A DNA stretch of 64,000 bases from Roseomonas marmotae (GTDB taxonomy: Bacteria > Pseudomonadota > Alphaproteobacteria > Acetobacterales > Acetobacteraceae). The stretch covers positions 3,106,501-3,170,500 of the forward strand of contig NZ_CP061091.1 of assembly GCF_017654485.1 (NCBI RefSeq), written 5' to 3'. The notes under the pieces are model-generated. The model had not been told where the DNA came from. It searched no databases and saw nothing but the letters and a program-made list of their open reading frames with translations. Shown here in pieces: positions 11,229 through 38,053 of this stretch; within the stretch, counting starts at the first letter, position 1; every line of letters starts with the position of its first letter. A program made the position numbers and the translations under genes.

Positions 11229-11248
11229 TTGATCGACCGGCCGGTCAA
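11229..11248. promoter_or_regulatory. Palindromic operator, site A (tetR / ABC transporter)
   Basis: TTGATCGACCGGCCGGTCAA, an imperfect 20-bp palindrome with a perfect GACCGGCCGGTC core. It lies 95 bases upstream of the tetR start and 117 bases upstream of the transporter binding-protein start. Fourteen of 20 positions are identical with sites B (30495) and C (38034). Size and symmetry fit a TetR operator. Confidence 0.7.
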
Positions 11249-11365
11249 TTCTTTCGGCATTGCCCGCCCAGGGCGCATCGGCCCCTCCATCAGGAGGCCG
11301 GAGCGCCGGGCCAATGACATTCAAGGGAACGTTGAAGTTCCCGGAGTCCAAGGAGAGAGAAGTCG

Positions 11366-12517
11366 ATGCGGAATCTCGCCGCCGGCCTGACGCTGGCGCT
11401 CGGCCTGACCACGGCAGCCACGGCCGCCGAACCCGTCCGGGTCGGCGTCGTCATTTCCGAGACCGGGCCCGGTGCCTCGCTGGGCATCCCCGAAGGCCGC
11501 TCCATCCGGCTGCTGCCGAAGGAATTCAGCGGGCAGCCGGTCGAGTGGATCGTGCTGGACGACGGTTCCGACACCACCCGCGCCGTGACGAACATGCGAA
11601 AGCTGATCACCGACAACCGCGTGGACGCGGTGGTCGGCTCCACCGTCACGCCCGCCTCCATCGCCATGGTCGAGGTCGCGGCGGAGCAGAAGGTGCCGAC
11701 CATCTCGCTGGCCGGTTCCGCCACCATCGTCTCCCCGGTGGATGAGAAGCGCCGCTGGGTCTTCAAGACCGCGCAGAACGACGCGCTGATGGCCACCGCC
11801 GTCGCCGACCACATGGCCAAGGCCGGCGTGAAGCGGCTGGCGCTGGTCAGCGTCAGCGATTCCTATGGCGATGGCTGGCTGGGCATCTTCAAGCCGCTGC
11901 TGGAGCAGCGGAACATCGCCGTGGCGGCCGATGAGCGCTATGCCCGCACGGATACCAGCGTCACCGGCCAGAGCCTGAAGGTCATCGCCGGCCGCCCCGA
12001 CGCGGTCTTCATCATCTCCGCCGGCACTCCGGCCGCGCTGCCGGCCAAGACGCTGCGCGAGCGCGGCTTCCGCGGCGCGATGTACCAGACTCATGGCGTG
12101 GCGAATGCCGATTTCCTCCGCATCGGCGGCAAGGATGTCGAAGGCACCATCCTCCCCGTCGGCCCCGTGGTGGTGGCGGACCAGCTGCCGGAGACCCACC
12201 CCTCCCGCGATGTCGCCCGCCAGTATCGCGACGCCTATGAGGCCGCGCATGGCGCCGGCAGCGTCTCCGCCTTCGGCTCCTATGCCTATGACGCCGGCAT
12301 TCTGCTGCAGCACGCCATTCCCGTGGCGCTGAAGACCGCCCAGCCCGGCACGCCGGAATTCCGCGCGGCGCTGCGCGATGCGCTGGAGGGGCTGAAAGGC
12401 GTCGTCTACGTGAACGGCACCGCGACCATGTCGCCCGCCGACCATGTCGGCCAGGACGAGAACGCGCGGGTGATGGCCGTCATCAAGGATGGCAAGTGGC
12501 AGGCCCTGCCGCAGTAA
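11366..12517 (+). CDS. Branched-chain-type ABC transporter substrate-binding protein
   Basis: Periplasmic binding protein (383 residues) of the type I LivJ/LivK fold. It has a signal peptide (MRNLAAGLTLALGLTTAATAA) followed by VRVGVVISETGPGASLG, the usual start of the mature protein, and later VVGSTVTPASIAMVEVA and LVSVSDSYGDGWLG. AAGGAG lies 9 bases upstream of the ATG. It is the first gene of a four-gene transporter operon that includes a permease, a permease-ATPase fusion and an ATPase. Proteins of this family import amino acids, but many proteobacterial members carry aromatic or other carboxylic acids. Because a putative PaaR-type operator precedes the operon, phenylacetate or a related aromatic acid is a reasonable guess, not a demonstrated substrate. 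Confidence 0.9.
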   Translation: MRNLAAGLTLALGLTTAATAAEPVRVGVVISETGPGASLGIPEGRSIRLLPKEFSGQPVEWIVLDDGSDTTRAVTNMRKLITDNRVDAVVGSTVTPASIAMVEVAAEQKVPTISLAGSATIVSPVDEKRRWVFKTAQNDALMATAVADHMAKAGVKRLALVSVSDSYGDGWLGIFKPLLEQRNIAVAADERYARTDTSVTGQSLKVIAGRPDAVFIISAGTPAALPAKTLRERGFRGAMYQTHGVANADFLRIGGKDVEGTILPVGPVVVADQLPETHPSRDVARQYRDAYEAAHGAGSVSAFGSYAYDAGILLQHAIPVALKTAQPGTPEFRAALRDALEGLKGVVYVNGTATMSPADHVGQDENARVMAVIKDGKWQALPQ

Positions 12518-12558
12518 GAGCCTGACTTCAACGACCTGACCTCCGCCGGGGATTGGCC

Positions 12559-13599
12559 GTGGATCTCTCGATATTTCTCGTGCTCGTGCAGGATGGCATC
12601 GTCAACGGTGCCATCTATGGCCTGCTGGCGCTGGCGCTGGTGATTGTCTTCACGGTCACCCGCGTCATCCTGGTGCCGATCGGTGAATTCGTCGCCTTCG
12701 GGGCGCTGACCCTGGCGGCGCTGGAAACCGGCACGCTGCCGGGCACGGTCTGGTTGCTGCTGATCCTCGGCGCCGCCTCGGCGGCCTGCCGGCTCTGGGC
12801 CTCCCGCCGCCATGCCACGGCGAGAAGCATGACGATGCAGGTGGCGACGTCGCTGCTGCTGCCGCTGGTGGTGGCGGCTCTGGCCTGGGCGGCCGTGGCC
12901 TGGGAAGCGCCGCTCATCGCCAAGATCATCATCGCCCTGGCCATCGTGGCGCCGATGGGCCCCTATCTCTACGACATCGTCTACCGGCCCATGGCCGATG
13001 CCAGCGTGCTGGTGCTGCTGATCGTCTCCGTCGCGCTGCATCTGGCAATGCAGGGGCTGGGGCTGGTCTTCTTCGGCGCCGAAGGCTCCCGCACCTCCAG
13101 CCTCTCCGATGCCACGCTCGAGATCGGGCCACTCTTCATCACCGGACAGTCGCTGGTGATCGTGCTGATGACCATCGCGCTGATCGTCGCGCTCTTCCTG
13201 TTCTTCGAGCGCACGCTGCTCGGCAAGTCCCTGCGTGCCACCGCCGTCAACCGGCTGGGCGCGCGCCTTGTGGCCATCTCGCCCGCGCTCTGCGGGCATG
13301 TCGCCTTCACGCTCGCGGCCAGCATCGGCGCGCTGGGCGGCATCATGATCTCCGCCATCACCACGATCTATTACGACACCGGCTTCCTGATCGCGCTGAA
13401 GGGTTTCGTCGCCGCCGTCATCGGCGGGCTGGTCAGCTACCCGCTGGCCGCGGCGGGCGCGATCCTGATCGGGCTGGTGGAGAGCTTCGCCTCCTTCCAC
13501 GCCAGCGCCTTCAAGGAAGTGCTGGTCTTCATGATCATCATCCCCGTGCTGCTATGGCGTTCCTTCACCACGCCCGTGGCGTTGGACGAGGAGGAGTAA
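12559..13599 (+). CDS. Branched-chain-type ABC transporter permease (LivH-like)
   Basis: Inner-membrane permease of about 346 residues, LivH family. IVNGAIYGLLALALVIVFTVTRVI at the N-terminus and FERTLLGKSLRATAVNRLGARLVAIS in the cytoplasmic loop that contacts the ATPase are characteristic. It is longer than a standard LivH (about 290) because of an insertion with extra helices around residues 65-120. The frame can start with TTG at 12553 or GTG at 12559; the GTG has GGGGA at a better distance. The next gene starts 3 bases after the stop, so translation is probably coupled. It would form the transmembrane channel with the LivM half of the next protein. Confidence 0.88.
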   Translation: MDLSIFLVLVQDGIVNGAIYGLLALALVIVFTVTRVILVPIGEFVAFGALTLAALETGTLPGTVWLLLILGAASAACRLWASRRHATARSMTMQVATSLLLPLVVAALAWAAVAWEAPLIAKIIIALAIVAPMGPYLYDIVYRPMADASVLVLLIVSVALHLAMQGLGLVFFGAEGSRTSSLSDATLEIGPLFITGQSLVIVLMTIALIVALFLFFERTLLGKSLRATAVNRLGARLVAISPALCGHVAFTLAASIGALGGIMISAITTIYYDTGFLIALKGFVAAVIGGLVSYPLAAAGAILIGLVESFASFHASAFKEVLVFMIIIPVLLWRSFTTPVALDEEE

Positions 13600-13602
13600 G
13601 CC

Positions 13603-15393
13603 ATGGCCCCGATGCACCGCGTCGCTGCCGGCGCCGCGCTCGCCATCGCCATCGTCGCACCGCTGGTGCCGGGCTTCCCGCCCTTCTGGGTCACGCTGCT
13701 CAGCTATATCGGCCTCTCCGGCCTCGTCGTGCTGGGGCTGGTGGTGCTGACAGGCGTGGCGGGGCTGACCTCCTTCGGCCAGGCCATGTTCACGGGCTTC
13801 GGCGCCTATACCACCGCGATCCTGACCACCCGCTACGGGCTTTCCCCCTGGGTGACGCTGCCGATCTCGCTGCTGGTCACGGGCGGGCTGGCCTGGGCCA
13901 TCGGCGCCGTCACGCTGCGGCTGAAGGGCCATTACCTCGCCATCGCCACCATCGCCTGGAATGTCAGCTTCTTCTATCTGGTCGGCAACCTGGACTTCTT
14001 CCACCGCAATGACGGCATCAGCGGCATTCCCGCCATCCGGCTGGGCGGCATCGACTTCGGCGATACCCGCAACTTCTATTTCCTGGTGCTGGCCTGCGTG
14101 GTTCTGGCCATACTGCTGACGCGCAACCTGCTCGACTCCCGCCCGGGCCGCGCGATGCGCGCGCTGCGCGGCGGTGCCCTGGCGGCCGAATCCTTCGGGG
14201 TGAACACCTTCCAGGCCCGCATCCTGGCTTTCGTCTATGCGGGCGTGCTGGCGGGGCTCGCGGGCTGGCTCTACGCGCATCTGCAGCGCGCGGTGAACCC
14301 CTCCCCCTTCGGCATCAACATGAGCATCGACTACCTCCTGATGGCCGTGGCGGGCGGCGTGCACAACATCGGCGGCGCGCTGCTGGGCGCGGCCATCGTC
14401 ACGCTGCTGCGGGACCAGTTGCAGACTCTTCTGCCCTGGCTGCTGAACGCGCAGGGCAATTTCGAGACCATCGTCTTCGGCGCCCTGCTGATCCTGTTGC
14501 TGCAATTCTCGCCGCGCGGCATCTGGCCGCATCTGGCGAAGCTGGCCGGCCGCCTGCTGCCGAAGCCGGCCCAGCCCCCGATCCCCGCAGCCACCGAGGC
14601 GCAGATCCTGCCCCCGCGCCCGCAACCGGAACGCGGGCAGGAGATCCTGCGCGCCACCGCGCTGCGCAAGCAGTTCGGCGGGCTGGTGGCGGTCAATGAT
14701 GTCGGCTTCCGTCTGGATGCCGGCGAGGTGGTCGGGCTGATCGGCCCGAATGGCGCGGGCAAGAGCACCACCTTCAACCTGCTGACCGGCGTGCTTTCCG
14801 CCACCAAGGGCAGCGTGGCCTTCCTGGGCGAGGAAATCTGCGGCCGCAGCGCGCGCCACATCGCCACGCGCGGCGTGGCCCGCACCTTCCAGCATGTGAA
14901 GCTGGTGCATGGCATGACGGTGCTGGACAATGTGGCGCTGGGTGCGCATCTCCGCGCCTCCTCCGGCCCGCTCCGCGCCGCGTTGAAGCTGGACCGGGCG
15001 GAGGAAGCCAGGCTCTTCGCCCTTGCCTGGCAGCAGTTGCACCGCGTCGGACTGGCGCATTGCGCCTATCTGGTGGCGGATGAGCTGTCGCTTGGCCAGC
15101 AGCGGCTGGTCGAGATCGCCCGCGCGCTCTGCCTCGACCCCGTGCTGCTGCTGCTGGACGAGCCCGCCGCGGGCCTGCGCCATCTGGAAAAGGCGGCATT
15201 GGCGAAGCTGCTGGACAGGCTGCGGGCGGAAGGCATGACCATCCTGCTGGTCGAGCACGACATGGATTTCGTCATGAACCTGACGGACCGGCTTGTGGTG
15301 ATGAATTTTGGCACGGAGCTGGCGCAGGGCCGGCCGAAGGAGATCCAGGGCAACCCCGCCGTGATCGACGCCTATCTGGGAACCGCCGCATGA
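13603..15393 (+). CDS. Fused ABC transporter permease and ATPase (LivM-LivG)
   Basis: Single 596-residue protein that combines a LivM-type permease (about residues 1-310) and a LivG-type ATPase (about 345-596), joined by a Pro/Gln-rich linker (PKPAQPPIPAATEAQILPPR). The permease part has GLTSFGQAMFTGFGAYTTAIL and the loop SRPGRAMRALRGGALAAESFGVN. The ATPase has Walker A GPNGAGKSTTFN, an unusual signature LSLGQQRLVEIARAL and Walker B LLLLDEPAAGLRH. No frameshift is needed, so the fusion is genuine in this sequence. Such fusions are known among branched-chain-type transporters. It shares 4 bases (ATGA) with the next gene, the second ATPase. Confidence 0.92.
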   Translation: MAPMHRVAAGAALAIAIVAPLVPGFPPFWVTLLSYIGLSGLVVLGLVVLTGVAGLTSFGQAMFTGFGAYTTAILTTRYGLSPWVTLPISLLVTGGLAWAIGAVTLRLKGHYLAIATIAWNVSFFYLVGNLDFFHRNDGISGIPAIRLGGIDFGDTRNFYFLVLACVVLAILLTRNLLDSRPGRAMRALRGGALAAESFGVNTFQARILAFVYAGVLAGLAGWLYAHLQRAVNPSPFGINMSIDYLLMAVAGGVHNIGGALLGAAIVTLLRDQLQTLLPWLLNAQGNFETIVFGALLILLLQFSPRGIWPHLAKLAGRLLPKPAQPPIPAATEAQILPPRPQPERGQEILRATALRKQFGGLVAVNDVGFRLDAGEVVGLIGPNGAGKSTTFNLLTGVLSATKGSVAFLGEEICGRSARHIATRGVARTFQHVKLVHGMTVLDNVALGAHLRASSGPLRAALKLDRAEEARLFALAWQQLHRVGLAHCAYLVADELSLGQQRLVEIARALCLDPVLLLLDEPAAGLRHLEKAALAKLLDRLRAEGMTILLVEHDMDFVMNLTDRLVVMNFGTELAQGRPKEIQGNPAVIDAYLGTAA

Positions 15394-16115
15394 CGATCCT
15401 CAGCGTGCAGGGCGCCACCGTCAGCTACGACGCCATCCTGGCCGTCTCCGACGTCTCCCTCAGCGTGCCGAAGGGGACCGTGATCACCATCCTCGGGCCG
15501 AATGGCGCCGGGAAATCCTCGCTGCTGAACGCCATCATGGGCGTGGTGCCGGCCAGCGGCGGCATCAGCTTCGCCGGGCGGGACCTGAGAGGCGAGAGCG
15601 TGGAGGCCCGTGTGGCCGACGGCCTCAGCCTGGTGCCAGAGAAGCGCGAGCTGTTCTCCAGCATGACGGTGGAGGACAATCTCCGCCTCGGCCGTTTCCG
15701 CCTGCGCCACAAGGGCAGCGCGGAGCCCCTGCTGAACGAGATGTTCGCCCTGTTCCCGCGCCTGAAGGAAAGGCGCCGGCAGCTGGCGGGCACCCTCTCG
15801 GGCGGGGAGAGGCAGATGCTGGCCATGGCCCGCGCCCTGATGGGCGAGCCGCGCCTGCTGATGCTGGACGAGCCCAGCCTCGGCCTTGCCCCGTTGATCG
15901 TGCGGGAGATCCTGCAGACCGTCGCCAATCTGCGCGACAACGGCACGTCAATCCTGCTGGTGGAGCAGAATGCCAGGGCCGCGCTGCGTATCGCCGATTA
16001 CGGCTACGTGCTGGAGAATGGCCGCGTGATGCTGGAAGGCGAGCCGGCGATGTTGCAGGCGGACCAACGCATCATCGAATCGTATCTGGGGGTGCGTTCG
16101 GCCGTCTCCGTCTGA
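15390..16115 (+). CDS. Branched-chain-type ABC transporter ATPase (LivF-like)
   Basis: ATP-binding protein of 241 residues, LivF type. It has Walker A GPNGAGKSSLL, signature LSGGERQMLAMARAL, Walker B LLMLDEPSLGLAP and the H-loop-equivalent SILLVEQNA, in which Gln replaces His as in other LivF proteins. It overlaps the permease-ATPase fusion by 4 bases, completing the transporter: binding protein, LivH, LivM-LivG and LivF. A small inverted repeat (TGAGAG/CTCTCA, 16113-16129) covers the stop codon, but no T-tract follows, so it is at most a weak termination signal. Confidence 0.94.
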   Translation: MTILSVQGATVSYDAILAVSDVSLSVPKGTVITILGPNGAGKSSLLNAIMGVVPASGGISFAGRDLRGESVEARVADGLSLVPEKRELFSSMTVEDNLRLGRFRLRHKGSAEPLLNEMFALFPRLKERRRQLAGTLSGGERQMLAMARALMGEPRLLMLDEPSLGLAPLIVREILQTVANLRDNGTSILLVEQNARAALRIADYGYVLENGRVMLEGEPAMLQADQRIIESYLGVRSAVSV

Positions 16116-26227: not shown

Positions 26228-28267
26228 TCACGGCGCCGGGCGCGCGCTCATGGTCAGCACGTCGTACTGCGCGACCGTCTCGTCATTCTGGTTGAAGACC
26301 TCGGCATCCCAGCGCACCTCGCCATAATCCGGCAGGCGGGCGGAACGCTTCGACTTCACCGTCAGCCGCACGCGGATCGAATCGCCGGGCGAGACCGGCT
26401 TCAGGAAACGCAGCCGCTCCAGCCCGTAATTCGCCAGCAGCGGCCCTGGTGCCGGGTCCACGAACAAACCGGCCGCGAAGCTCAGGATCAGGTAGCCATG
26501 CGCCACGCGCCCCGGGAAGAAGGGGTTCGCCTTGGCGGCTTCCTCATCCATATGCGCGTAGAACCTGTCGCCGGTGAAATTGGCGAAATGCTCGATATCC
26601 TCGAGCGAGATGGTGCGCGCGGGGGTCACCACCGTGTCGCCGATGGCGATCTCGTCGAAGTTCTTGCGGAAGGGATGCGGCCCTTCCACCTTCGTCGGCG
26701 CGCCCTGTCCCCAGGTCTTCGTCAGGGCGGTCAGCTTGGCGGGCGAACCCTGCAAGGCCGTGCGCTGCATGTAGTGATACACGCCGCGCAGCCCGCCCAT
26801 CTCCTCGCCGCCGCCGGCGCGGCCGGGGCCGCCATGCACCAGGGCCGGCAGGGGCGAGCCATGGCCCGTCGCTTCCTTGGCGCTGTCGCGGTCGACCAGA
26901 TAGAGGCGGCCATGGAAGGGCGCGAGGCCCATCACCAGCTGTTCCGTCACATCGGCGTCGTAGGAGAAGGCGGAGGCGACGAGGCTGCCCTCCCCGCGCT
27001 GCGCCAGGTCGATGGCCTGGTCCAGCCCGTCATAGGGCAGCAGGGTGGAGACGGGGCCGAAGGCCTCGACATGGTTCACCCGTTCCGCGCGAATCGGCTC
27101 GGCGCAATGCAGCAGCACCGGGGAGAGGAAGGCGCCGGCATCGGCATCGGCATCCACCACCGTGCAATGCAGCGGATCACCGAAGACGATCTCGGATTCC
27201 CCGGCCAGCTTCGCGATGTTCTCTCGCACGTCGCGGCGCTGCTGCTGGCTGGCCAACGGGCCCACGGCCACCTTCTCGTCACGCGGATTGCCGATGGCGA
27301 GCTTACCCAGCCGCGCCGCCAGCGCATCGCGAACCGCCTCCACACGCTCGCGCGGCACGATCACGCGGCGGATGGCCGTGCATTTCTGCCCGGCCTTGGC
27401 CGTCATCTCCCGCGCCACTTCCTTGATGAAGAGGTCGAATTCCGGGCTCTCCGGCGTCACGTCCGTGCCGAGGATGGCCGCGTTCAGCGAATCCCGCTCC
27501 GCGATGAAGCGCACGGCATTGCGCGAGACGGTCGGGTGGTCACGCAGCTTGCCGGAGGTGATGGCGGAGCCGGTGAAGGAGACGACATCCTGCCCGTTCA
27601 GATGCTCCAGCAGGTCGCCGGTGGAGCCGGCGACGAACTGTACCGCGCCCGGTGGCAGGATGCCGGATTCGACGATCATGGCGAACATGGCATGGGCCAG
27701 ATAGGCCGTGGCCGTCGCCGGCTTGGTGATGACGGGGACGCCGGCCAGGATGGTCGGCGCCAGCTTCTCCAGCATGCCCCAGCAGGGGAAGTTGAAGGCA
27801 TTCACATGCACGGCCACGCCGTGCAGCGGCGTCATGATATGCGCGCCGACGAAGCTGCCGTTCTTCGAGAGCGGCTCGAACGCACCGTCCAGCACGAAGC
27901 GCTCGCTCGGCAGTTCCTTCCGGCCGCGCGAGGCATAGGCGAAGAGCGTGCCGATGCCGCCGTCGATATCGATCCAGCTATCCCGCCGGGTGGCGCCGGT
28001 ATCGTAGGAAAGCTCGTAGAGAGCCTCCTTCCGCTCGGTCAGATGCACCGCAAGGCGCTTCAGCATCTCCGCGCGCTGGTGGAAGGTCAGCGCGCGCAGC
28101 GCCGGGCCGCCCACCTGCCGTGCATGGCGCACCATGGCCCCGAAATCCACCCCGGCCGAGGAGGCCGTGGCGATCACGCGGCCATCGACCGCGCTTGGGA
28201 TCTCCACCGCACCGGCGCCGGGGGCGACCCAGCGGTTCTCGGCGTAGCTTTGCAGTGTCAGGACCAT
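26228..28267 (-). CDS. paaZ: Oxepin-CoA hydrolase / 3-oxo-5,6-dehydrosuberyl-CoA semialdehyde dehydrogenase
   Basis: PaaZ, the ring-opening bifunctional enzyme of aerobic phenylacetate catabolism, 679 residues. The N-terminal aldehyde dehydrogenase domain (1 to about 520) has the general base in [10 protein letters not shown] (E257) and the catalytic Cys in AGQKCTAIR (C296). The C-terminal MaoC-like hydratase domain (about 535-679) opens the oxepin ring; its active site lies around [15 protein letters not shown]. Both sets of catalytic residues are present, so both half-reactions should work, unlike single-domain orphans that only hydrolyse. The gene is directly downstream of the fused hydratase/dehydrogenase gene on the same strand (22 bases), so they share the operon that starts at operator B. 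Confidence 0.96.
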
Positions 28268-28289: not shown

Positions 28290-30383
28290 TCAGCCGGGCG
28301 CGGCGCGCCCGCGCTGCCATTCCTTGAAAGTGCTGCCGGCCTCGGCTAGTTCGCGCAGCAGGGGCGCGGGCTCGGAGCCCACGCCACCGGCCTCGGCGGC
28401 GGCCTCCACCTCCGCCAGCACGGCGCGCAGGCCGCGTTGGTCGGCGGCGAACAGCGGCCCGCCCTTGATGCGCGGGAAGCCGTAGCCATTGGTGAAGACG
28501 AGATCGATGTCGGAGGGCCGCAGGCTGATGCCCTCGGCCACGATCTTCGCGCCCTCATTCGCCATCACGGCCAGAAGCCGGTTCTGGATCTCCTCGGCCG
28601 TGAAGCGGCGCGGCGTGATTCCGGCGGCCTCGCGCTCGGCGGCGATGATCGCATCCACCGCCGGGTCCGGCTCGGCCTTGCCGCTGGCATAGCTGTACCA
28701 GCCGGCGCCGGTCTTGCGGCCCAGGCGCCCGGCCTCGCAGAGCCGGTCGGGAATGGCGACGTAACGCTCCCCCGGGTCGCGCGTGGCGGCGCGGCGCTTG
28801 CGCATGGCCCAGGCGATATCCAGCCCGGACATGTCGCCTACCGCGAAGATTCCCATGGCGAAGCCATAGGATTCCATTGCCGCGTCCACCTCGCGCGGGC
28901 TGGCGCCATCCTCCACCAGATATTCGGCGTGGCGGCGATAGACGGCATAGATGCGGTTGCCGATGAAGCCTTCGCAGACGCCGGAGACGATGGGCAGCTT
29001 GCCGAGCTTCTTGCCGAAGGCGAGTCCGGTGGCCAGCACGCCCGGCGCCGTCTTCGCGCCGCGCACCACCTCCAGCAGCTTCATGATGTTGGCGGGGGCG
29101 AAGAAGTGCAGCCCCAGCACATCCTGCGGCCGGTTGGTGAAGGCGGCGATCTCGTCGGGGTCGAGATAGGAGGTATTCGTCGCCAGCACCGCGCCCGGCT
29201 TCGCCACCGCATCCAGGCGGCGGAAGATATCCTCCTTCACCGTCAGATCCTCGAAAGCGGCCTCGATGATCAGGTCCGCCAGGGCCAGGCTGTTCCAGTC
29301 CTCGGTGGGCGTGATGCGCACCACGTGCTCGGCCGCCGCGGCATCGGTCAGCCGGCCGCTCTTGGCCTGCTTGCCATAGGCATCGCGCAGCCGGGCCGCG
29401 CAGGCGGCGGCGGATCTGGCATCGCGCTCGATCACCGTCACCGGCAGGCCAGCATCGGCCACGGCCATGGCGATGCCGCTGCCCATGGTGCCGCCGCCGA
29501 TCACGGCCACATGCCCGACTGCGCGGGGCGTGACGCCCTTCAGGCCGGGCACGCGCGACGCCTCACGCTCGGCGAGGAAGAGATGCCGCAGCGCGGCGGC
29601 CTCGGCACTGGCGCGCAGCGGCAGGAAGACCTCGCGCTCGCGCTTCAGGCCGGCTTCGAAATCCATGCCGGCGGTCTCGCGCAGCAGCTCCACCACGACG
29701 GGAATGGCCGGCACGCCCTTGGCCTTCTTCAGGGCGGACTGGGCGGCGGCTTCCACGGCGGCGGGGTCGGCGGGCGGGATGGGCAGCGCGGAGACATGGC
29801 GCTTCGCGGCACCGGGCGCCAGCCGCACGGCCTCGGCCAGCAGTTCCCCTTCCAAGATGCCGTCGATGATGCCGAGCTTCGCGGCTTCCGGCGCGCGCAG
29901 GATCTTGGCCTCGCCGATCAGCTCGATGGCCTTGGCGGTGCCCACCAGGCGCGGCAGCCGCTGCGTGCCGCCGGAGCCCGGCAGGATGCCCAGGCGGGTC
30001 TCCACCAGCCCGACGCTGGCCTTGGGCGTCGCGAGGCGCAGGTCGCAGGCCATGGCGATTTCCAGCCCGCCTCCCAGTGCCACGCCATCGATGGCGGCGA
30101 CCACGGGCTGCGGGATGGCCTCGATCGCCCGGATCACGTCGGGCAGGATCGGCTCATCCGGCGGCAGGTCCATTTCCTTGATGTCGGCGCCGGCGATGAA
30201 GCGGCCGGAGCCGCCATGCAGCACCACCGCCGTCACGCTGTCGTCAGCCGCCAATGCACGGGCCGCGTCCAGCAGCCCCTGCCGCACCGGGCGCGACAAC
30301 GCGTTCACCGGGGCATAGTCGATCCGCACCAGCGCGACGGAGCCTTCGCGGCTGACCGATACGGCGGGGTTCTGACTGTCCAT
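28290..30383 (-). CDS. Fused enoyl-CoA hydratase/3-hydroxyacyl-CoA dehydrogenase (FadB/J-like) of the paa cluster
   Basis: Bifunctional protein of 697 residues. The crotonase domain (about 1-200) has RFIAGADIKEM, GVALGGGLEIAMACDLR and VETRLGILPGSGGTQRLPR with both catalytic Glu positions. The NAD-binding domain starts at VIGGGTMGSGIAMAVADAG (about 292), with the catalytic His in LGLHFFAPANIMKLLEVV, followed by two C-terminal dehydrogenase domains. GGAGGAAGC precedes the ATG. In the paa cluster it most likely performs the steps done by separate PaaF (2,3-dehydroadipyl-CoA hydratase) and PaaH (3-hydroxyadipyl-CoA dehydrogenase) in E. coli. Neither separate gene is in this window. It is the first gene of the operon with paaZ, divergent from paaG across operator B. 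A general fatty-acid role cannot be excluded. Confidence 0.93.
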   Translation of the reverse strand: MDSQNPAVSVSREGSVALVRIDYAPVNALSRPVRQGLLDAARALAADDSVTAVVLHGGSGRFIAGADIKEMDLPPDEPILPDVIRAIEAIPQPVVAAIDGVALGGGLEIAMACDLRLATPKASVGLVETRLGILPGSGGTQRLPRLVGTAKAIELIGEAKILRAPEAAKLGIIDGILEGELLAEAVRLAPGAAKRHVSALPIPPADPAAVEAAAQSALKKAKGVPAIPVVVELLRETAGMDFEAGLKREREVFLPLRASAEAAALRHLFLAEREASRVPGLKGVTPRAVGHVAVIGGGTMGSGIAMAVADAGLPVTVIERDARSAAACAARLRDAYGKQAKSGRLTDAAAAEHVVRITPTEDWNSLALADLIIEAAFEDLTVKEDIFRRLDAVAKPGAVLATNTSYLDPDEIAAFTNRPQDVLGLHFFAPANIMKLLEVVRGAKTAPGVLATGLAFGKKLGKLPIVSGVCEGFIGNRIYAVYRRHAEYLVEDGASPREVDAAMESYGFAMGIFAVGDMSGLDIAWAMRKRRAATRDPGERYVAIPDRLCEAGRLGRKTGAGWYSYASGKAEPDPAVDAIIAAEREAAGITPRRFTAEEIQNRLLAVMANEGAKIVAEGISLRPSDIDLVFTNGYGFPRIKGGPLFAADQRGLRAVLAEVEAAAEAGGVGSEPAPLLRELAEAGSTFKEWQRGRAAPG

Positions 30384-30514: not shown

Positions 30515-30594
30515 TGCAAGGAATAAAGCGACGCCGGCTTGCGGCCAAGACGAGAGACCATCCATGGTCCGCGAGCACCGGAAGGAGAAACGGG

Positions 30595-31386
30595 ATGGAT
30601 CAGGTCCTGCGGGTCGAGAAGCGTGACGGCTGGTGGAAGCTGGTATTGAACCGGCCCGACAAGCTGAACGCCTTCAACGAGGCCCTTCACACCGCGCTCT
30701 ACGCCGCGCTGGGCGAGGCAGCGGATGCGGAAGTTTGCCGCGCCGTGCTGCTGACTGGCGAAGGGCGCGGCTTCTGCGCGGGCCAGGACCTGGGTGACCG
30801 CCGCCCCGGCCAGGGTGGCCCGCCCGACCTGGGCCAGACGCTGGAGCGTTTCTACAACCCGCTGATCAGCCGCATCCGCAGCCTGCCCAAGCCGGTGGTC
30901 TGCGCGGTGAACGGCGTGGCGGCCGGGGCCGGCGCCAATATCGCCATCGCCTGCGATATCGTGCTGGCGGCGCAGTCGGCCCGCTTCATCCAGTCCTTCT
31001 CAAAGATCGCACTTGTGCCGGATTCAGGAGGCACTTTCCTGCTGCCGCGATTGATCGGGGAGGCGCGTGCCAAGGCCCTGATGTTCACGGCGGAGCCCCT
31101 GCCCGCCCCGATCGCCGCCGAATGGGGCATGATCTGGAAGGCGGTGGCCGACGACCAGCTCCAGACCGAGGCCGAGGCCCTGACCCAGCGCCTGGCCGCC
31201 CAGTCCACCGAGGGGCTGGGGCGGATCAAGCAGGCGCTGGAGGCTTCGGCCACCAACAGCCTGGACCAGCAACTGGACCTGGAGCGCGACCTGCAGCGCC
31301 AGGCCGGCCGCTCGCCCGACTACGCGGAAGGCGTGCTTGCCTTCCTGGAGAAGCGCCCGCCCAGCTTCGGCAAACGCACGGACTGA
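30595..31386 (+). CDS. paaG: 2-(1,2-epoxy-1,2-dihydrophenyl)acetyl-CoA isomerase
   Basis: PaaG, a crotonase-fold isomerase of 263 residues that converts the phenylacetyl-CoA epoxide to the seven-membered oxepin-CoA. The oxyanion-hole segments are GEGRGFCAGQDLGDR and VNGVAAGAGANIAIACDIVLAA. The acid/base Asp is in SKIALVPDSGGTFLLPRLIG, where Asp replaces the Glu of hydratases, which is diagnostic for PaaG. AAGGAG precedes the ATG at 30595; the open frame begins at 30514 but the extra residues are not family-like. paaK follows 25 bases later in the same operon. Operator B lies 81 bases upstream. Confidence 0.95.
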   Translation: MDQVLRVEKRDGWWKLVLNRPDKLNAFNEALHTALYAALGEAADAEVCRAVLLTGEGRGFCAGQDLGDRRPGQGGPPDLGQTLERFYNPLISRIRSLPKPVVCAVNGVAAGAGANIAIACDIVLAAQSARFIQSFSKIALVPDSGGTFLLPRLIGEARAKALMFTAEPLPAPIAAEWGMIWKAVADDQLQTEAEALTQRLAAQSTEGLGRIKQALEASATNSLDQQLDLERDLQRQAGRSPDYAEGVLAFLEKRPPSFGKRTD

Positions 31387-31411
31387 AAGAATAACCGGAG
31401 GAAGCACCACG

Positions 31412-32728
31412 ATGAGCGCAACGGTCCTGGAAAATTCCCCTGTCCTGGCGGCGGTGGAGCGGGCCTCCCGCGAGGAGATCCGCGCCCTGCAGAAGGAGCG
31501 CATGGCGAAGATCCTGCGGCACGCCTACGACAACGTGCCGCATTACCGCCGCAGCTTCGACGCCGCCGGGGTGCATCCCGACGACTTCAAGGAGCTTTCG
31601 GACATCGCGAAGTTTCCCTTCACGGTGAAGACGGACCTCCGGGACAACTACCCCTTCGGCCTGCTGGCGGTGCCGCAGGAGAAGATCGCGCGCATCCACG
31701 GCTCCTCCGGCACCACCGGCAAGCCCATCGTCGTCGGCTATACCAAGGGCGACATCGACAACTGGGCGGAGTTGATGGCCCGCTCTATCCACGCCGCCGG
31801 CGGCCGCCCCGGCATGAAGGTGCATGTGGCCTATGGCTATGGCCTCTTCACCGGCGGCCTCGGCGCCCATTACGGGGCGGAGCGGCTGGGCTGCACCGTC
31901 ATCCCGATGTCCGGCGGCATGACCGAGCGGCAGGTGCAGCTCATCAACGACTTCAGGCCGGAGATCATCATGGTCACGCCCAGCTACATGCTGGCGCTGA
32001 TGGATGAGTTCCGCCGCCAGGGCCTGGACCCCCGCCAGTCCTCGCTGAAGATCGGCATCTTCGGCGCCGAGCCCTGGACCAATGCCATGCGGCAGGAGAT
32101 CGAGCAGGCCTTCGACATGCAGGCCGTGGACATCTACGGCCTGTCCGAGGTGATGGGTCCCGGCGTGGCGCAGGAATGCGTGGAGACCAAGGACGGCCTG
32201 CATATCTGGGAGGACCACTTCTACCCCGAGGTGATCAACCCCGAGACGGGTGAGGTCCTGCCGGATGGCGAGTTGGGCGAGCTGGTCTTCACCACGCTGA
32301 CCAAGGAGGGCCAGCCGGTCATCCGCTACCGCACGCGCGACCTGACGCGGCTGCTGCCCGGCACCGCCCGCCCGGGCATGCGGCGGATGGAGAAGGTCAC
32401 AGGCCGCTCGGACGACATGATCATCCTGCGGGGCGTCAATGTCTTCCCTTCGCAGATCGAGGAAGTGCTGCTGGCGCAGAACTGGTGCAGCGGCCATTTC
32501 CAGATCCGCCTGACGCGGGAGGGGCGGATGGACTGCATGACCATCCATGCCGAATGCCGCGCCGGAGACTGGGATGGCGAGGGCCTGAAGCAGGAGGCCG
32601 GAGCGCTGATCGAGCAGATCAAGAACACCATCGGCATCACCACCAGGGTGGTGATCGAGCAGCCCGGCTCGGTCGAGCGCTCCATCGGCAAGATGCGGCG
32701 CGTGATCGACCGCCGGAACCAGGGCTGA
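31412..32728 (+). CDS. paaK: Phenylacetate-CoA ligase
   Basis: PaaK, the ATP- and CoA-dependent ligase that activates phenylacetate to phenylacetyl-CoA, the first committed step and source of the pathway inducer. It has 438 residues, normal for the family. The phosphate-binding loop is GSSGTTGK (97-104); VAYGYGLFTGGLGAHYGAERLG and DIYGLSEVMGPGVA are typical, and the C-terminal lid carries GRSDDMIILRGVNVFPSQIEE and the catalytic Lys region SIGKMRRVIDRR. GGAGG lies 10 bases ahead of the ATG. It is cotranscribed with paaG and ends 161 bases before the YciI-like gene. Confidence 0.97.
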   Translation: MSATVLENSPVLAAVERASREEIRALQKERMAKILRHAYDNVPHYRRSFDAAGVHPDDFKELSDIAKFPFTVKTDLRDNYPFGLLAVPQEKIARIHGSSGTTGKPIVVGYTKGDIDNWAELMARSIHAAGGRPGMKVHVAYGYGLFTGGLGAHYGAERLGCTVIPMSGGMTERQVQLINDFRPEIIMVTPSYMLALMDEFRRQGLDPRQSSLKIGIFGAEPWTNAMRQEIEQAFDMQAVDIYGLSEVMGPGVAQECVETKDGLHIWEDHFYPEVINPETGEVLPDGELGELVFTTLTKEGQPVIRYRTRDLTRLLPGTARPGMRRMEKVTGRSDDMIILRGVNVFPSQIEEVLLAQNWCSGHFQIRLTREGRMDCMTIHAECRAGDWDGEGLKQEAGALIEQIKNTIGITTRVVIEQPGSVERSIGKMRRVIDRRNQG

Positions 32729-33315: not shown

Positions 33316-34410
33316 TCACACCTGGTCGTAGTCGATGACGACACGCTCGCTGGTCGGCCGCGACTGGCAGGTCAGGACGAAGCCCGCCTTGGTCTCCCAG
33401 GGCTCCAGCGAGTAGTTCACTTCCATCTCCACCGTGCCCTCGACCACCTTGGCGCGGCAGGTGCTGCACATGCCGCCCTTGCAGGCATAGGGCAGGTCGA
33501 GGCCGGCCCGCAGGGCGGCGTCCAGGATGGCCTCGCCCTCCGCCACCTTCACCTCGCGGCGGTTGCCATCGACGATCAGCGCGGCGGTGCGGTGCGCCGC
33601 CTCGGCCTCGGCGGCGCTGGGCACCACCTTCGGGCGCGGCCTGCCGCCGAGGGCGGAGACGAAGCGCTCGATATGCACCCGTTCCTCCGGCACGCCCATC
33701 TCGCGCAGCGTGGCCTCGATCTCCTCGCTCATGCCCGTGGGGCCGCAGACGAAGACATGGTTCACCTGTCCGGCTGGAACGATATGGCGCAGCAGCACGC
33801 GCACCTTCTCGCCATCCAGGCGGCCGTTCAGGATGGCGATGTCCTGTTCTTCCTGCGACAGCACATGGAAGACCGAGAGGCGGCCGAGAAAGCGGTCCTT
33901 CAGCTCCTCCAACTGCTCGCGGAACAGCATCTCGCCGCCCGAGCGGTTGCCGTAGAAAAGGAAGAAGCGGCTCTGCGGCTCCCGCGCCAGCACGCCGCGG
34001 ATAATGGAGAGGATGGGCGTGATGCCGGAGCCAGCGGCGAAGCCCGCATGGATGCGCGCCTCGCCCGGTGCCGGCGCCACGCCGAAGCGGCCGGTGGGGG
34101 TCATCACATCCAGCTCGTCACCCGCCCGCAACGCGGTATTGGCCCAGGTGGAGAAGGCGCCGCCATCCACCTGCTTCACCGCGATCCGCAGCTCGCCATC
34201 CTCGGGGCCCGAGCAGATGGAATAGGAGCGGCGCACTTCCTCATCATCCATCCGGGTGCGCAGCGTCAGATACTGGCCGGGCTCGAAGGCATAGAGGGGG
34301 CGCATCTCCTCCGGCACCTCGAAGGCGATGGAGACGGCGTCGCGCGTCTCCCGCTTCAGGTCGGCGATGCGCAGGCGGTGGAAGCGGGGTGTCGTGGCGG
34401 TGGCGGACAT
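33316..34410 (-). CDS. paaE: 1,2-phenylacetyl-CoA epoxidase reductase subunit
   Basis: PaaE, the reductase that passes electrons from NADPH through FAD and a [2Fe-2S] centre to the PaaABC oxygenase. It has 364 residues from the chosen ATG. The FAD-binding RRSYSICSGP is near residues 59-68, the nucleotide-binding GSGITPILSIIRGVL follows, FVCGPTGMSEEIE is the C-terminal NAD(P) element, and the plant-type ferredoxin domain has its Cys ligands in YACKGGMCSTCRAKV and LTCQSR. A start 63 bases upstream is possible but would overlap paaD. It is the last gene of the paaABCDE operon. Confidence 0.96.
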   Translation of the reverse strand: MSATATTPRFHRLRIADLKRETRDAVSIAFEVPEEMRPLYAFEPGQYLTLRTRMDDEEVRRSYSICSGPEDGELRIAVKQVDGGAFSTWANTALRAGDELDVMTPTGRFGVAPAPGEARIHAGFAAGSGITPILSIIRGVLAREPQSRFFLFYGNRSGGEMLFREQLEELKDRFLGRLSVFHVLSQEEQDIAILNGRLDGEKVRVLLRHIVPAGQVNHVFVCGPTGMSEEIEATLREMGVPEERVHIERFVSALGGRPRPKVVPSAAEAEAAHRTAALIVDGNRREVKVAEGEAILDAALRAGLDLPYACKGGMCSTCRAKVVEGTVEMEVNYSLEPWETKAGFVLTCQSRPTSERVVIDYDQV

Positions 34411-34421
34411 GGCTGCTTCCG

Positions 34422-34919
34422 TCAATGGCATTTGAAATAGTCGAAGGGCTCGCGGCAACTCTCGCAGCGCCACAGCGCCTTGCAGGAGGTCGAGCCGAAT
34501 TCGGCGAGCAGGCTGGTGTCGTCGGAGCCGCAGCGCGGGCAGGTCACGACATCGCGGCCGAACAGCGCGCGGCGCCCGCTACCGGGCTGCGGCGGCGCGA
34601 TGCCGTATTCGCGCAGCTTGCGGCGGCCATCCTCGCTCATCCAGTCCGTGGTCCAGGCCGGGGCCAGCACGGTGCGGACTTCCCGGTCCTCGATCCCGGC
34701 CCTGGAGAGCGCGAGGTCGATCTCGAAGGCGATCATGTTCATCGCCGGGCAGCCGGAATAGGTGGGGGTGATGTCCACGCGGACATGCCCATCCTCCACC
34801 ACCACATCCCGCAGCACGCCCAGATCGGCGATGGTCAGCACCGGGATCTCCGGGTCCACCACCGTGCTCGCGGCCTCGATCGCTTTCTGCCGCAGCGTGC
34901 TGTCACTCTGCTGCGCCAT
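34422..34919 (-). CDS. paaD: 1,2-phenylacetyl-CoA epoxidase subunit PaaD (maturation protein)
   Basis: PaaD, needed for assembly or activity of the epoxidase and thought to help cofactor maturation. About 165 residues. The N-terminal MIP18/DUF59 domain has VVDPEIPVLTIADLGVLRDV and YSGCPAMNMIAFEID; the C-terminal zinc ribbon has CPRCGSDD and CKALWRCESC. The frame can also begin with GTG at 34928, overlapping the paaC stop by 4 bases. The ATG at 34919 is preferred because GGTGA lies 5 bases ahead. It sits between paaC and paaE, 11 bases from the latter. Confidence 0.94.
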   Translation of the reverse strand: MAQQSDSTLRQKAIEAASTVVDPEIPVLTIADLGVLRDVVVEDGHVRVDITPTYSGCPAMNMIAFEIDLALSRAGIEDREVRTVLAPAWTTDWMSEDGRRKLREYGIAPPQPGSGRRALFGRDVVTCPRCGSDDTSLLAEFGSTSCKALWRCESCREPFDYFKCH

Positions 34920-34924
34920 GGCCT

Positions 34925-35701
34925 TCACCAGGTGGCGCCGGGGTAGGTCCGGGCCAGCACCTGCATCTCCGCCAACATATGGCCGAGATGCTCGCTATGG
35001 ATGCCGCTGCGGCCGCCCTTCTGCATCCAGGTGCCGGCCGGCTTCTCCAGCGTCGCCTCGGCCAGCACCTCGGAGACCGTCTTCTCCCACTGCGCGCGGA
35101 AGCTGGCGGGGTCCAGCACGATGCCGGCCTGGATCAGCTCCTGCTCGGCGGCATCGGCCTCGAACATCTCGCCGGTATAGGGCCAGAGATGCGCCACGGC
35201 CTCGGCGGCGCGGCGGTGGCTTTCCTCCGTGCCGTCGCCCAGGCGGATCACCCATTCGGCGGTGTGGCGGAGGTGATAGGCGCTTTCCTTCTCCGACTTC
35301 GCGGCGATGGCCGCCAGCGTGGCGTCGGAGGAGTTCATCATCGCCCGCCAATACGGGTCGGCGAAGGCGGCGTAGAAGAACTGGCGCAGCATCGTGCGGG
35401 CGAAGTCGCCATTCGGCTGCTCGGCCAGCAGCAGGTTCCGGTACTGGCGGGAATCACGGAGGTAGGCGTAGCCGTCCTCGTCATGGCCGGCGCCCTCGAC
35501 CTCGGCCGCATAGCTGTAGAGGGAGCGCGCCTGGCCCAGCAGGTCCAGCCCGATATTGGCCAGCGCCATCTCCTCCTCCAGCGCCGGCCCCCGGCCGGTC
35601 CATTCGGAGAGGCGGTGGCCCATCACCAGCGCATCATCGGCGCGGCGCAGGCAATAGAGCACCAGCGGGGTCTCGGAGACCCGGATCGAGGTCGTCGCCA
35701 T
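34925..35701 (-). CDS. paaC: 1,2-phenylacetyl-CoA epoxidase structural subunit PaaC
   Basis: PaaC, the ferritin-fold structural partner of the catalytic PaaA subunit; PaaA and PaaC form the core of the ring-epoxidising complex. It has 258 residues, normal length. The helical signature EEEMALANIGLDLLGQARSLYSYAAEVEG and the region NGDFARTMLRQFFYAAFADPYW are conserved. PaaC lacks a functional di-iron site in characterised systems and acts as scaffold. It lies between paaB (24 bases) and paaD. Confidence 0.96.
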   Translation of the reverse strand: MATTSIRVSETPLVLYCLRRADDALVMGHRLSEWTGRGPALEEEMALANIGLDLLGQARSLYSYAAEVEGAGHDEDGYAYLRDSRQYRNLLLAEQPNGDFARTMLRQFFYAAFADPYWRAMMNSSDATLAAIAAKSEKESAYHLRHTAEWVIRLGDGTEESHRRAAEAVAHLWPYTGEMFEADAAEQELIQAGIVLDPASFRAQWEKTVSEVLAEATLEKPAGTWMQKGGRSGIHSEHLGHMLAEMQVLARTYPGATW

Positions 35702-35725: not shown

Positions 35726-36013
35726 TCACATATGCCCGACTTCGTCGGGCACCTCGTAGAAGGTCGGGTGGCGATAGATCTTGCTCTCCGCGGGCTCGAA
35801 CATCATGCCCTTCTCGGAGGGGTCGGAGGCGGTGATGGCGTTGGAGGGCACGACCCAGATCGAGAGCCCCTCCCCCCGCCGCGTATAGACGTCGCGCGCG
35901 GCCTGCAGCGCCATGGTCGCATCCGCCGCATGCAGCGAACCGACATGCTTATGCGAAAGCCCGTTGCGGCTGCGGATGAAGACTTCCCAGAGCGGGGTGA
36001 TGGTTTTCGTCAT
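35726..36013 (-). CDS. paaB: 1,2-phenylacetyl-CoA epoxidase subunit PaaB
   Basis: PaaB, a 95-residue subunit that bridges PaaAC pairs into the larger epoxidase assembly. The sequence LWEVFIRSRNGLSHKHVGSLHAADATMALQAARDVYTRRGEG is highly characteristic. It is 12 bases downstream of paaA and 24 bases upstream of paaC. No catalytic residues are expected. Confidence 0.97.
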   Translation of the reverse strand: MTKTITPLWEVFIRSRNGLSHKHVGSLHAADATMALQAARDVYTRRGEGLSIWVVPSNAITASDPSEKGMMFEPAESKIYRHPTFYEVPDEVGHM

Positions 36014-36025
36014 GATCGGCGTTCC

Positions 36026-37036
36026 TCAGGCAGCCTGCTGGCGGGCGCGGCGCTTCTCGGCGAAGGCCAGCGCGGCCTCGCGCACCCAGGCGCCTTCCTC
36101 ATGCGCCTTGTTGCGGGCGGCCAGCCGGTCGCGGTTGCAGGGACCGTTGCCGGCCAGGATCTGCTTGAATTCTTCCCAGTCGATCTGGCCACAGCGCCAA
36201 TGGCCGGTGGTGCCGTCGCCCTCCGCATCCGGCTCGAAGCGCAGGTCGGGGTCGGGCAGCGTCAGGCCGAGGTAATGCGCCTGCGGCACCGTGGCATCGA
36301 CGAATTTCTGGCGCAGCTCGTCGTTGGAGAAGCGCTTGATCTTCCAGCGGGTGGACTGGTCGGAATGCTGGCTGACGGCATCCGGCGGGCCGAACATCAT
36401 CAGGCAGGGCCACCACCAGCGGTTCAGCGCATCCTGCGCCATGGCCTTCTGCTCCTCCGTGCCACGGCAGAGCGTCAGCATGATCTCGTAGCCCTGGCGC
36501 TGGTGGAAGCTCTCCTCCTTGCAGACGCGGATCATGGCGCGCGCATAGGGGCCGTAGGAGCAGCGGCAGAGCGGGATCTGGTTCATGATGGCCGCGCCAT
36601 CCACCAGCCAGCCGATGGCGCCGATATCCGCCCAGGTCAGGGTCGGATAGTTGAAGATCGAGGAATACTTGGCCTTGCCGCTCAGAAGCTGGTCGGTCAG
36701 CTCCTCGCGCGAGACACCCAGGGTCTCGGCGGCGGCGTAGAGATACAGGCCGTGGCCGCATTCATCCTGCACCTTGGCCAGCAGCGCGGCCTTGCGGCGC
36801 AGGCTGGGGGCGCGGGTGATCCAGTTGCCTTCCGGCAGCATGCCGATGATCTCGGAATGCGCGTGCTGGGAGATCTGCCGCACCAGGGTCTTGCGATAGG
36901 CGGCCGGCATCCAGTCGTTGGGCTCGATCCGCTCCTCGGCATCCACGCGCGCCTGGAAGCGCGCTTCCAGCTCGATCTCCTCCGCGGCGCGGATGGCGGG
37001 GGCTTCGTCGCGGGCGTTCAGCGCCTGGGTGTACAT
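36026..37036 (-). CDS. paaA: 1,2-phenylacetyl-CoA epoxidase catalytic subunit PaaA
   Basis: PaaA, the di-iron subunit that inserts one oxygen atom of O2 into the aromatic ring of phenylacetyl-CoA. It has 336 residues. The iron-ligand motifs are DECGH (91-95) and EESFH (174-178), with additional ligands in the helices around them. AGGAGG lies just upstream of the ATG. It is the first gene of the paaABCDE operon, preceded by an 88-base AT-richer spacer that probably holds its promoter and PaaX site. The family assignment is secure. Confidence 0.97.
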
Positions 37037-37124
37037 GGCCGTCCTCCTGGATCGCCGGGGTTCGATCCCTTAGGAGGAATATATAACCGTTTTTGTCCAA
37101 ACCAAGAAAAATTTGTAACGCTTT
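37037..37124 (-). promoter_or_regulatory. AT-rich leader and probable promoter of paaABCDE
   Basis: On the minus strand a plausible promoter consists of TTGGTT (37105-37100), 16 bases, then TATATT (37083-37078), within a markedly AT-rich block in an otherwise GC-rich region. CGTTACAAATTT and CGGTTATATATT form an imperfect repeat here and may be PaaX half-sites. The assignment of the PaaX site is a guess. Confidence 0.45.
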
Positions 37125-37985
37125 TCACCGCTCCCGGAAGCGTGCGGCCAGATCCGGGCCGGGCGGCGGCAGCGGCCCTTCGGCGCGGGTGGCATGTTCC
37201 TCCAGCCAGGCCTCGGAAGCCGGCAGCAGCGCCCGGTAGAGCTGCCCGCACAGCGCGCGCGCCGTATCCCCCGCCCAGTCCGCCGGCAGCAGCGCGCGGG
37301 GCAGCGGCGGGTGGCGCAGCACGGCGCGGCGGTATTCGTGGATCAGCAGCACCCGCGCCACCAGCGCATCCACCCCCTCCAGCGCATGGCCCTGCTCCAT
37401 CCAGAGGGCCAGCGGCTCGAAGGCGGCGACGAAACGGCGGTAAGCTTCGGCCAGGGCTTCCAGCGGCCAGCATTGCCCGGCCAGCCGGCGGGCATCCTGG
37501 GTGTCCGCCTCGGCCAGCAGCGTAATGGCAGCGGCGGCTTCCGGCGGTACCTCCACCCCTTCTGGCGCCACCCAGAGCCCCGGCTGGGCCATTCCGAAAC
37601 CGGCCTGTTGCAACGCGGCGCGCATCTCCGCGCCTTCCGCCAGCACCAGCCGGAAACGCCCGGGCGCGGCGGGGGCATGGGGGGCGTAGATGCGCCCGGC
37701 GGCCTCGGCGAAAGTCGCCTGACCCTTCCCGGCCAGGGCATAGAAGCTGTTGCGGCCCTGGCGGCTGCGCTCCAGCCATCCGTCGGCGGAAAGGCGCGAC
37801 ATGGCCGTGCGCACCGCACCCTCCGCCACGCCCATGGCCTGGAAGATCTCCGTCAGCGTCGCCAAGCTGACGGCACCCCCGCGCGGCACGATGGCGTCGC
37901 CGAACACCGTGATCACCACCGACCAGGTGCGCGAGGGCGCGCTGTTGAGGTGGTGCAGAATCTCCAGCAGGGGCGCAGCGGTCAT
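37125..37985 (-). CDS. paaX: Phenylacetate-responsive repressor PaaX
   Basis: PaaX, a GntR-like winged-helix repressor released by phenylacetyl-CoA, 286 residues. The DNA-binding part has SLATLTEIFQAMGVAEGAVRTAMSRLSADGWL (about 40-72); the middle and C-terminal parts carry PGRFRLVLAE, PLEALAEAYRRF and LIHEYRRAVLRHPPLPRALLPADWAG, typical of PaaX. AAGGAG precedes the ATG. It lies directly upstream of paaA on the same strand and is divergent from paaI across operator C, so the phenylacetate genes seem to be under both PaaX and a TetR-type regulator. Confidence 0.95.
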   Translation of the reverse strand: MTAAPLLEILHHLNSAPSRTWSVVITVFGDAIVPRGGAVSLATLTEIFQAMGVAEGAVRTAMSRLSADGWLERSRQGRNSFYALAGKGQATFAEAAGRIYAPHAPAAPGRFRLVLAEGAEMRAALQQAGFGMAQPGLWVAPEGVEVPPEAAAAITLLAEADTQDARRLAGQCWPLEALAEAYRRFVAAFEPLALWMEQGHALEGVDALVARVLLIHEYRRAVLRHPPLPRALLPADWAGDTARALCGQLYRALLPASEAWLEEHATRAEGPLPPPGPDLAARFRER

Positions 37986-38033
37986 GCACTCCTTCTAGCG
38001 AAGCGCCACCGCTTGAACAGCGGGCGCAACTAT

Positions 38034-38053
38034 TTGACCGGGCGGTCGGTGAA
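38034..38053. promoter_or_regulatory. Palindromic operator, site C (paaX / paaI)
   Basis: TTGACCGGGCGGTCGGTGAA lies between paaX (49 bases from its start) and paaI (32 bases from its start). It is less symmetric than sites A and B, but 14 of 20 positions are shared by all three. Confidence 0.65.

Follow-up and report, generated by a model that had tools for sequence, protein, structure and literature searches.

Palindromes in three divergent intergenic regions

The 64,000-nucleotide stretch of the Roseomonas marmotae genome analyzed here (the window) carries a set of phenylacetate degradation (paa) genes, a gene for a TetR-type regulator and an operon for an ATP-binding cassette (ABC) transporter, and three similar 20-base-pair (bp) palindromes lie among them (Table 1). 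All three palindromes are found between divergent genes. Site 1 is ∼95 bp from the start of tetR and 118 bp from that of the substrate-binding protein gene (sbp) of the transporter; site 2 is ∼112 bp from a fused dehydrogenase gene and 81 bp from paaG; site 3 is ∼49 bp from paaX and 32 bp from paaI. By inspection, 14 of the 20 columns are identical across the three sites. We propose that the TetR protein is very probably a PaaR, which would repress its own gene, the transporter and the paa operons through these sites and be released by phenylacetyl-coenzyme A (phenylacetyl-CoA).

The sites are nearly unique in the genome. A search of the whole window with TTGACCNACCGGNCGGTCAA, allowing up to three mismatches, found only the three sites (6 matches, both strands of each), compared with a mean of 0.08 and a maximum of 2 in 100 shuffles. 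Across the whole genome (4,833,053 bases in 10 contigs), the same search returned the three sites as the best matches and five other places, each at three mismatches; because the backward-read control gave 12 forward and 5 reverse matches, genome matches at three mismatches are at chance level. Every one of the five places is overlapped by an open reading frame (ORF) of at least 220 codons, which in G+C-rich DNA is no proof of coding. The palindromic consensus TTGACCGACCGGTCGGTCAA, with up to three mismatches, retrieved exactly the three sites (2 matches for the backward-read control), as did TTRACCGNNCGNNCGGTYAA with up to one mismatch (1 for the control), and these three matches are confined to one 27-kb region. 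A consensus scan found no sigma-70 promoters near the three sites, so we do not claim that the sites overlap promoters. A weaker palindrome on the tetR side of site 1, whose equivalent scores 16/20 in two close relatives (G152 and G153), is a possible second operator. A short palindrome of another kind, ACCATCCATGGT, lies between site 2 and paaG (30557-30568); of the five genomes aligned, three have it in identical form and two, G152 and G153, in a changed one, and it is possibly a site for another regulator.

The sites are also conserved. Each is found again at its corresponding place in all four close relatives that have a PaaX match (G150-G153, the same as loci L039-L042), in or beside well-conserved blocks, the weakest counterpart being that of site 3 in G153 (16/20). 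A one-mismatch site is present in a fifth relative, G154, a 2.9-Mb metagenome-assembled genome (MAG) without a PaaX match. An earlier note on this stretch had given the three sites with letters and coordinates that prove exact, and its statements on their agreement and divergent setting hold as well; neither a match of equal quality elsewhere in the genome nor a loss from these four relatives emerged to contradict it. Its observation of no similar site in the other intergenic regions that it read stands for window matches with up to three mismatches, although it overlooked the fourth, weaker palindrome GCGAGCGATCGGTCGGCGAA. It was right that paaX and paaI diverge from site 3, but paaX does not stand alone: it leads the same-strand run paaX, paaA, paaC, paaD, paaE.

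To follow the palindrome more widely, we scanned 92 loci for sites matching the consensus at 16/20 or better. These loci comprise 80 named loci (the 80 most similar in TetR among 368 relatives, close relatives included) and 12 further regions; they are not all distinct, since three of the 12 seem to come from the genomes of named loci (L027/L042, L028/L087 and L037/L103). The scan gave 98 sites, while 60 palindromes with permuted halves gave 0-18, 40 of them none, and the one that scored 18, TTCACCGAGCGCTCGGTGAA, is itself consensus-like. All but one of the sites (97/98) fall outside the genes mapped by tblastn with the window proteins, though unmapped genes could cover some of them. At least one site is present in 66 of the 80 named loci, where 88 of 89 sites precede tetR, sbp, paaG, paaI, paaZ or paaA by no more than 400 bp. 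The 56 distinct site sequences give the consensus TTRACCGNNCGNNCGGTYAA, which is shaped by the choice of 16/20. Motif discovery with no preset motif ranked TGACC-N8-GGTCA first, in 21 of 92 loci (maxima of 4-6 after letter shuffling). Other recurrent palindromes were G+C-rich or of AATTG/GATTG types, in at most 11 of 92 loci, and palindrome discovery in the upstream regions of the 92 loci yielded no clear second motif as a PaaX box. Sites also occur in Sinorhizobium chiapasense, which has both TetR and PaaX (17/20 and 16/20), and on a plasmid of Paracoccus denitrificans PD1222, where tetR, paa genes and a LIV-type ABC operon share one stretch with a 17/20 site before paaG.

As a separate observation, a genome of the same genus without TetR, PaaA or PaaX matches carries a near-perfect palindrome, TTGACCGGCCGGTCGGTCAG (L180, 1501-1520, 2 mismatches), beside a gene for a family-5 solute-binding protein; none of four ORFs tested near it encodes a TetR.

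Phenylacetate genes and the transporter

Most of the genes concerned could be identified directly (Table 1). A fused enoyl-CoA hydratase/3-hydroxyacyl-CoA dehydrogenase resembling FadJ/FadB heads the paaZ operon, apparently replacing separate PaaF and PaaH, whose work it probably does; a few relatives (e.g. L034, L036, L300) have similar genes close to their paa genes. The paaK ORF starts with TTG, and its PaaK match begins at residue 41. The operon limits are predictions from gene position and homology, and paaB is unannotated here. Elsewhere in the window, and unrelated to the palindromes, positions 43540-45678 encode a 712-residue protein with RTX calcium-binding repeats and DUF4214 domains.

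Table 1. Genes and palindromes of the window, with the basis of each assignment.
Feature	Position	Strand	Basis or context
tetR: PaaR-type TetR repressor (predicted), 209 residues	10505..11134	-	Pfam TetR_N + TetR_C_24; orthologues with paa genes
Weaker tetR-proximal palindrome GCGAGCGATCGGTCGGCGAA, possible second (autoregulatory) operator	11176..11195		14/20 to consensus
PaaR-type operator 1 (predicted), TTGATCGACCGGCCGGTCAA	11229..11248		between tetR (-) and ABC transporter operon (+)
LIV-type ABC transporter substrate-binding protein, predicted phenylacetate/aryl-acid uptake	11366..12517	+	Peripla_BP_6
ABC transporter permease	12553..13599	+	BPD_transp_2
ABC transporter permease fused to ATP-binding domain	13603..15393	+	BPD_transp_2 + ABC_tran
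ABC transporter ATP-binding protein, LivF-like	15390..16115	+	below LivF cut-off
paaZ	26228..28267	-	TIGR02278, 1062.5 bits (cut-off 562.8)
Fused enoyl-CoA hydratase/3-hydroxyacyl-CoA dehydrogenase, FadJ-like	28290..30383	-	none of 25 NCBIfam families shown reaches cut-off
PaaR-type operator 2 (predicted), TTGACCAACCGGACGGTCAA	30495..30514		between fused dehydrogenase-paaZ (-) and paaG-paaK (+)
paaG	30595..31386	+	TIGR02280, 385.4 bits (cut-off 345.15)
paaK	31337..32728	+	TIGR02155, 732.1 bits (cut-off 646.3)
paaE	33316..34473	-	TIGR02160 over cut-off
paaD	34422..34928	-	Pfam FeS_assembly_P + Zn_ribbon_PaaD
paaC	34925..35701	-	TIGR02158 over cut-off
paaA, first epoxidase gene after paaX	36026..37036	-	TIGR02156 over cut-off
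paaX, second repressor of pathway	37125..37985	-	TIGR02277, 281.8 bits (cut-off 264.55)
PaaR-type operator 3 (predicted), TTGACCGGGCGGTCGGTGAA	38034..38053		between paaX-paaA... (-) and paaI (+)
paaI	38085..38531	+	TIGR02286 over cut-off

The transporter is linked to paa genes in other genomes. The paa-linked substrate-binding protein of Xanthobacter finds its best match in this genome in the window protein (217 bits; next 117), and the two are therefore probably counterparts, at 36-38% identity. Closer relatives lie on plasmids of Methylobacterium aquaticum (62-65%), Deinococcus (56-58%) and Vitreoscilla filiformis (55%). In M. aquaticum the order is tetR-paaK-paaI-paaG, a 17/20 site, and then, on the opposite strand, sbp, permease, fused permease-ATPase and LivF; in V. 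filiformis the sbp gene lies between pcaF and paaZ, inside a paa cluster. The candidate importer is thus accompanied by paa genes and a PaaR-type site both in the window (site 1) and in M. aquaticum. These two arrangements suggest that the tetR/ABC block of the window, which is separated by ∼20 kb from the closest paa promoter with a site, is a detached part of a paa cluster that kept its operator, the direction of the move being what we infer.

The position of the transporter and the homologies of its binding protein suggest phenylacetate or a related aryl acid as its cargo. It is possible, if somewhat doubtful, that it belongs to the regulon but carries something else (another aryl acid, or amino acids), or that tetR autoregulation affects it only as a bystander. 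The Deinococcus loci lend this some weight: in Deinococcus sp. AJ005 no paa gene is annotated within 12 kb of the binding protein gene, and in D. radiodurans, where nothing at the locus scores above 13/20, the operon is next to a gene for a long-chain acyl-CoA ligase and ∼4 kb from paaK. So does a plasmid of Variovorax paradoxus, on which the fused ABC type (L333, 7914-12685) and a 33% TetR relative (L316, 9001-9588) lie ∼18 kb apart, next to a CoA-ligase/indolepyruvate-oxidoreductase cluster that also has genes for PaaN, an AMP-binding protein and a CoA transferase. The 9 kb on each side of that TetR relative contain neither a paaA-E operon nor a site scoring above 14/20, and the cluster may be a sister system for another aryl acid. 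Against the alternative stand the binding-protein homologues embedded in the paa clusters of M. aquaticum and V. filiformis, and the 23 of 80 named loci in which a LIV-type sbp gene diverges from tetR, 22 of them with a site between the two.

Association of the palindrome with TetR

The TetR protein contains PF00440 and PF17932 domains above gathering cut-offs and matches structure 3ccy_A (E 1e-34 over 193 residues). Its closest named relatives are those of three Pseudoroseomonas species (82-88% identity) and Acetobacteraceae bacterium AT-5844 (82%). In a sample of 150 genomes of the order, with a TetR threshold of E 1e-20, TetR and PaaA were each found in 18 and together in 17; PaaX was found in 17, of which 16 have both TetR and PaaA, and four other genomes of the same genus in the sample have no match to any of the three. 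In a class-level sample of 289 genomes, the counts were 19 for TetR, 33 for PaaA, 26 for PaaX, 14 for TetR with PaaA and 7 for all three.

At the level of loci, paa genes are present in the stretch at 72 of the 80 named TetR loci. Among the eight others, L039-L042 have tetR opposite an ABC operon, as in the window; L043 is a MAG contig with unmapped ABC genes, and L048, L055 and L070 are short or one-sided stretches. PaaX is encoded at 47 of the 80 loci, and in 43 paaX directly follows tetR on the same strand; of these 43, 36 contain a 16/20 site somewhere in the stretch, and in 17 such a site stands no more than 400 bp upstream of tetR. The earlier note's proposal that this TetR is a PaaR acting alongside PaaX is strengthened by this company, by the tracking of the palindrome with TetR rather than with PaaX (below) and by an operator core equal to that described for Burkholderia cenocepacia PaaR. 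Its view of two unrelated repressors on the same pathway as unusual is not supported: apart from the 43 loci, such co-occurrence was predicted in 2026 (PMC13186573).

To evaluate which regulator goes with the palindrome, we compared stretches around paaA, paaX and TetR in 18 TetR-positive genomes of the class with those in 19 that are TetR-negative and PaaA-positive. Sites of 16/20 occur in 9/18 of the former and 0/19 of the latter (Fisher p 0.0004), a directly observed association that should be read with the coverage in mind: TetR-negative genomes were represented by one stretch around paaA, six of them also by one around paaX (one overlapping its paaA stretch), and TetR-positive genomes by stretches around paaA and/or TetR, several of which stop at contig ends. 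In eight of the nine site-positive genomes the site lies upstream of paa genes. PaaX (E 1e-25) is present in 11 of the 19 site-free TetR-negative genomes, indicating that PaaX alone brings no good site; PaaX-negative labels depend on this cut-off, and tblastn shows PaaX-like stretches in G374 and G307.

It is accordingly improbable that PaaX, and not TetR, binds the palindromes and thereby controls tetR and the transporter. The position of paaX beside site 3, and its score over the family cut-off, would suit such a role. So would Sinorhizobium meliloti 1021 and Ak57, which have paaX as well as a 17/20 site flanked by paaG and a dehydrogenase gene (L328 19140, L326 19140) and no TetR match in their plasmid records, the records searched; these strains count against TetR as the binder and leave the PaaX reading open, even as the TetR-positive/TetR-negative comparison disfavours it. 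In the opposite direction, V. filiformis, a beta-proteobacterium, combines a TetR linked to paa genes (41% identical to that of the window) and an 18/20 site before paaG with no PaaX match in a 24.9-kb stretch, and B. cenocepacia, reported to have no PaaX homologue, uses the same core with PaaR (PMC2770484).

Other observations also weigh against TetR acting as a PaaR at these sites. The assignment, which we consider well supported, was made from gene context, co-occurrence, site association and operator core, and the window TetR falls far below the cut-off of every NCBIfam family. No 16/20 site was found in 14 of the 80 named loci, or in the fetched stretches of 9 of the 18 TetR-positive class genomes; the nine site-positive genomes belong to only seven genera, and one of them, G220, has its site near tetR only and lacks a PaaA match. 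At 15/20 the contrast is softer (14/18 versus 4/19), and if place is ignored, control matches are as numerous as motif matches in many genomes. Finally, 5 of the 18 TetR matches in the order sample are weak (35-41% identity), and those of G019, G065, G073 and G112, all from one Acetobacteraceae genus, lie on another contig or ∼2 Mb from paaA and may therefore be paralogues.

This last group (E ∼1e-22 to 1e-40), by its presence within the family, raises the question of whether the three sites are bound by another TetR paralogue of the genome, such as a fatty-acid regulator. Operator types can be shared among TetR regulators of acyl-CoA metabolism. We nevertheless hold this to be very improbable, given that site 1 abuts the window tetR gene, that orthologues of its product accompany both paa genes and the site, and that the genome has a single match at E 1e-20 (20 of 31 first-look candidates scored). 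A transcription terminator, as the stem and T-rich tail of site 1 might suggest, is rejected by the divergent gene layout, and a chance origin by conservation in relatives and by the genome-wide searches, with their three matches in one 27-kb region; either is next to inconceivable.

Proposed circuit and known PaaR systems

The most likely mechanism is the one known for PaaR elsewhere, in which a TetR-type repressor acts on paa promoters and is released by phenylacetyl-CoA (PMC9493321, PMC4424350). By analogy with these characterised proteins, the window TetR would bind the palindrome TTRACCGNNCGNNCGGTYAA at the three divergent promoter regions and repress in both directions. From site 1, perhaps with the weaker palindrome as a helper, it would repress its own gene and the transporter operon; from site 2, the fused dehydrogenase-paaZ and paaG-paaK operons; and from site 3, paaI and a paaX-paaABCDE operon. 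PaaK would convert imported phenylacetate to phenylacetyl-CoA, which would release the repressor, so that uptake and catabolism would switch on together.

PaaX would then act as a second brake, itself dependent on PaaR. Because paaX lies behind site 3 and follows tetR in so many loci, it is likely a PaaR target, although its role is suggested by position and homology, and a delayed action would be a guess. More tentatively, and with the balance of probability against it, one may imagine a two-tier circuit throughout the Alphaproteobacteria. PaaR on top would control importer, enzymes and paaX through the conserved palindrome, and since PaaR would repress paaX, PaaX would be made only after induction and would brake the pathway a second time with a delay, in an incoherent feed-forward loop, perhaps in answer to a different signal from that of PaaR. 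The puzzle of two unrelated repressors becomes directly testable, because the gene of one, paaX, lies behind the predicted operator of the other. The results also propose a DNA target for PaaR in Alphaproteobacteria, where the published Burkholderia core recurs, and point to a possible role for a transporter that would otherwise carry a branched-chain amino acid label.

Parts of this picture are already in print: PaaR, its operator core, PaaX, and the predicted co-occurrence of PaaR and PaaX. The last comes from a gene-content survey that predicts a shared paa context for the two in several groups, Alphaproteobacteria among them, and names Roseomonas in its subclade AlpE; the words transporter, operator and binding site do not occur in its main text (PMC13186573). 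The placing of paaX and a LIV-type transporter behind PaaR-type sites seems to be new, as the literature searched, which lacked most subscription journals, yielded nothing that puts either under PaaR sites in Alphaproteobacteria.

It is instructive to compare the proposed regulon with the characterised systems. PaaX of E. coli is a GntR-type protein that represses the same pathway and responds to phenylacetyl-CoA (PMC9493321, PMC4424350); it is unrelated to TetR, and the window encodes its own PaaX. The PaaR proteins of Thermus and Corynebacterium glutamicum, from other phyla, are TetR-type. The Corynebacterium operator has ACCG-N6-CGGT in common with the sites described here. In Thermus thermophilus, DNA binding by PaaR is lowered by phenylacetyl-CoA, and the reported operator, CNAACGNNCGTTNG, differs from our sites (PMC9493321). 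PaaR of B. cenocepacia (BCAL0210) is a TetR-type repressor of the paaA, paaZ and paaH promoters whose published core, ACCGACCGGTCGGT, equals the inner 14 bp of our consensus and agrees with those of each of the three sites at 12 of 14 positions (PMC2770484, PMC9493321). The arrangement, however, differs: in B. cenocepacia, as reported, paaR follows paaABCDE behind a DUF1835 gene, whereas in the window tetR adjoins an ABC transporter operon, well apart from the paa genes, and a PaaX is present.

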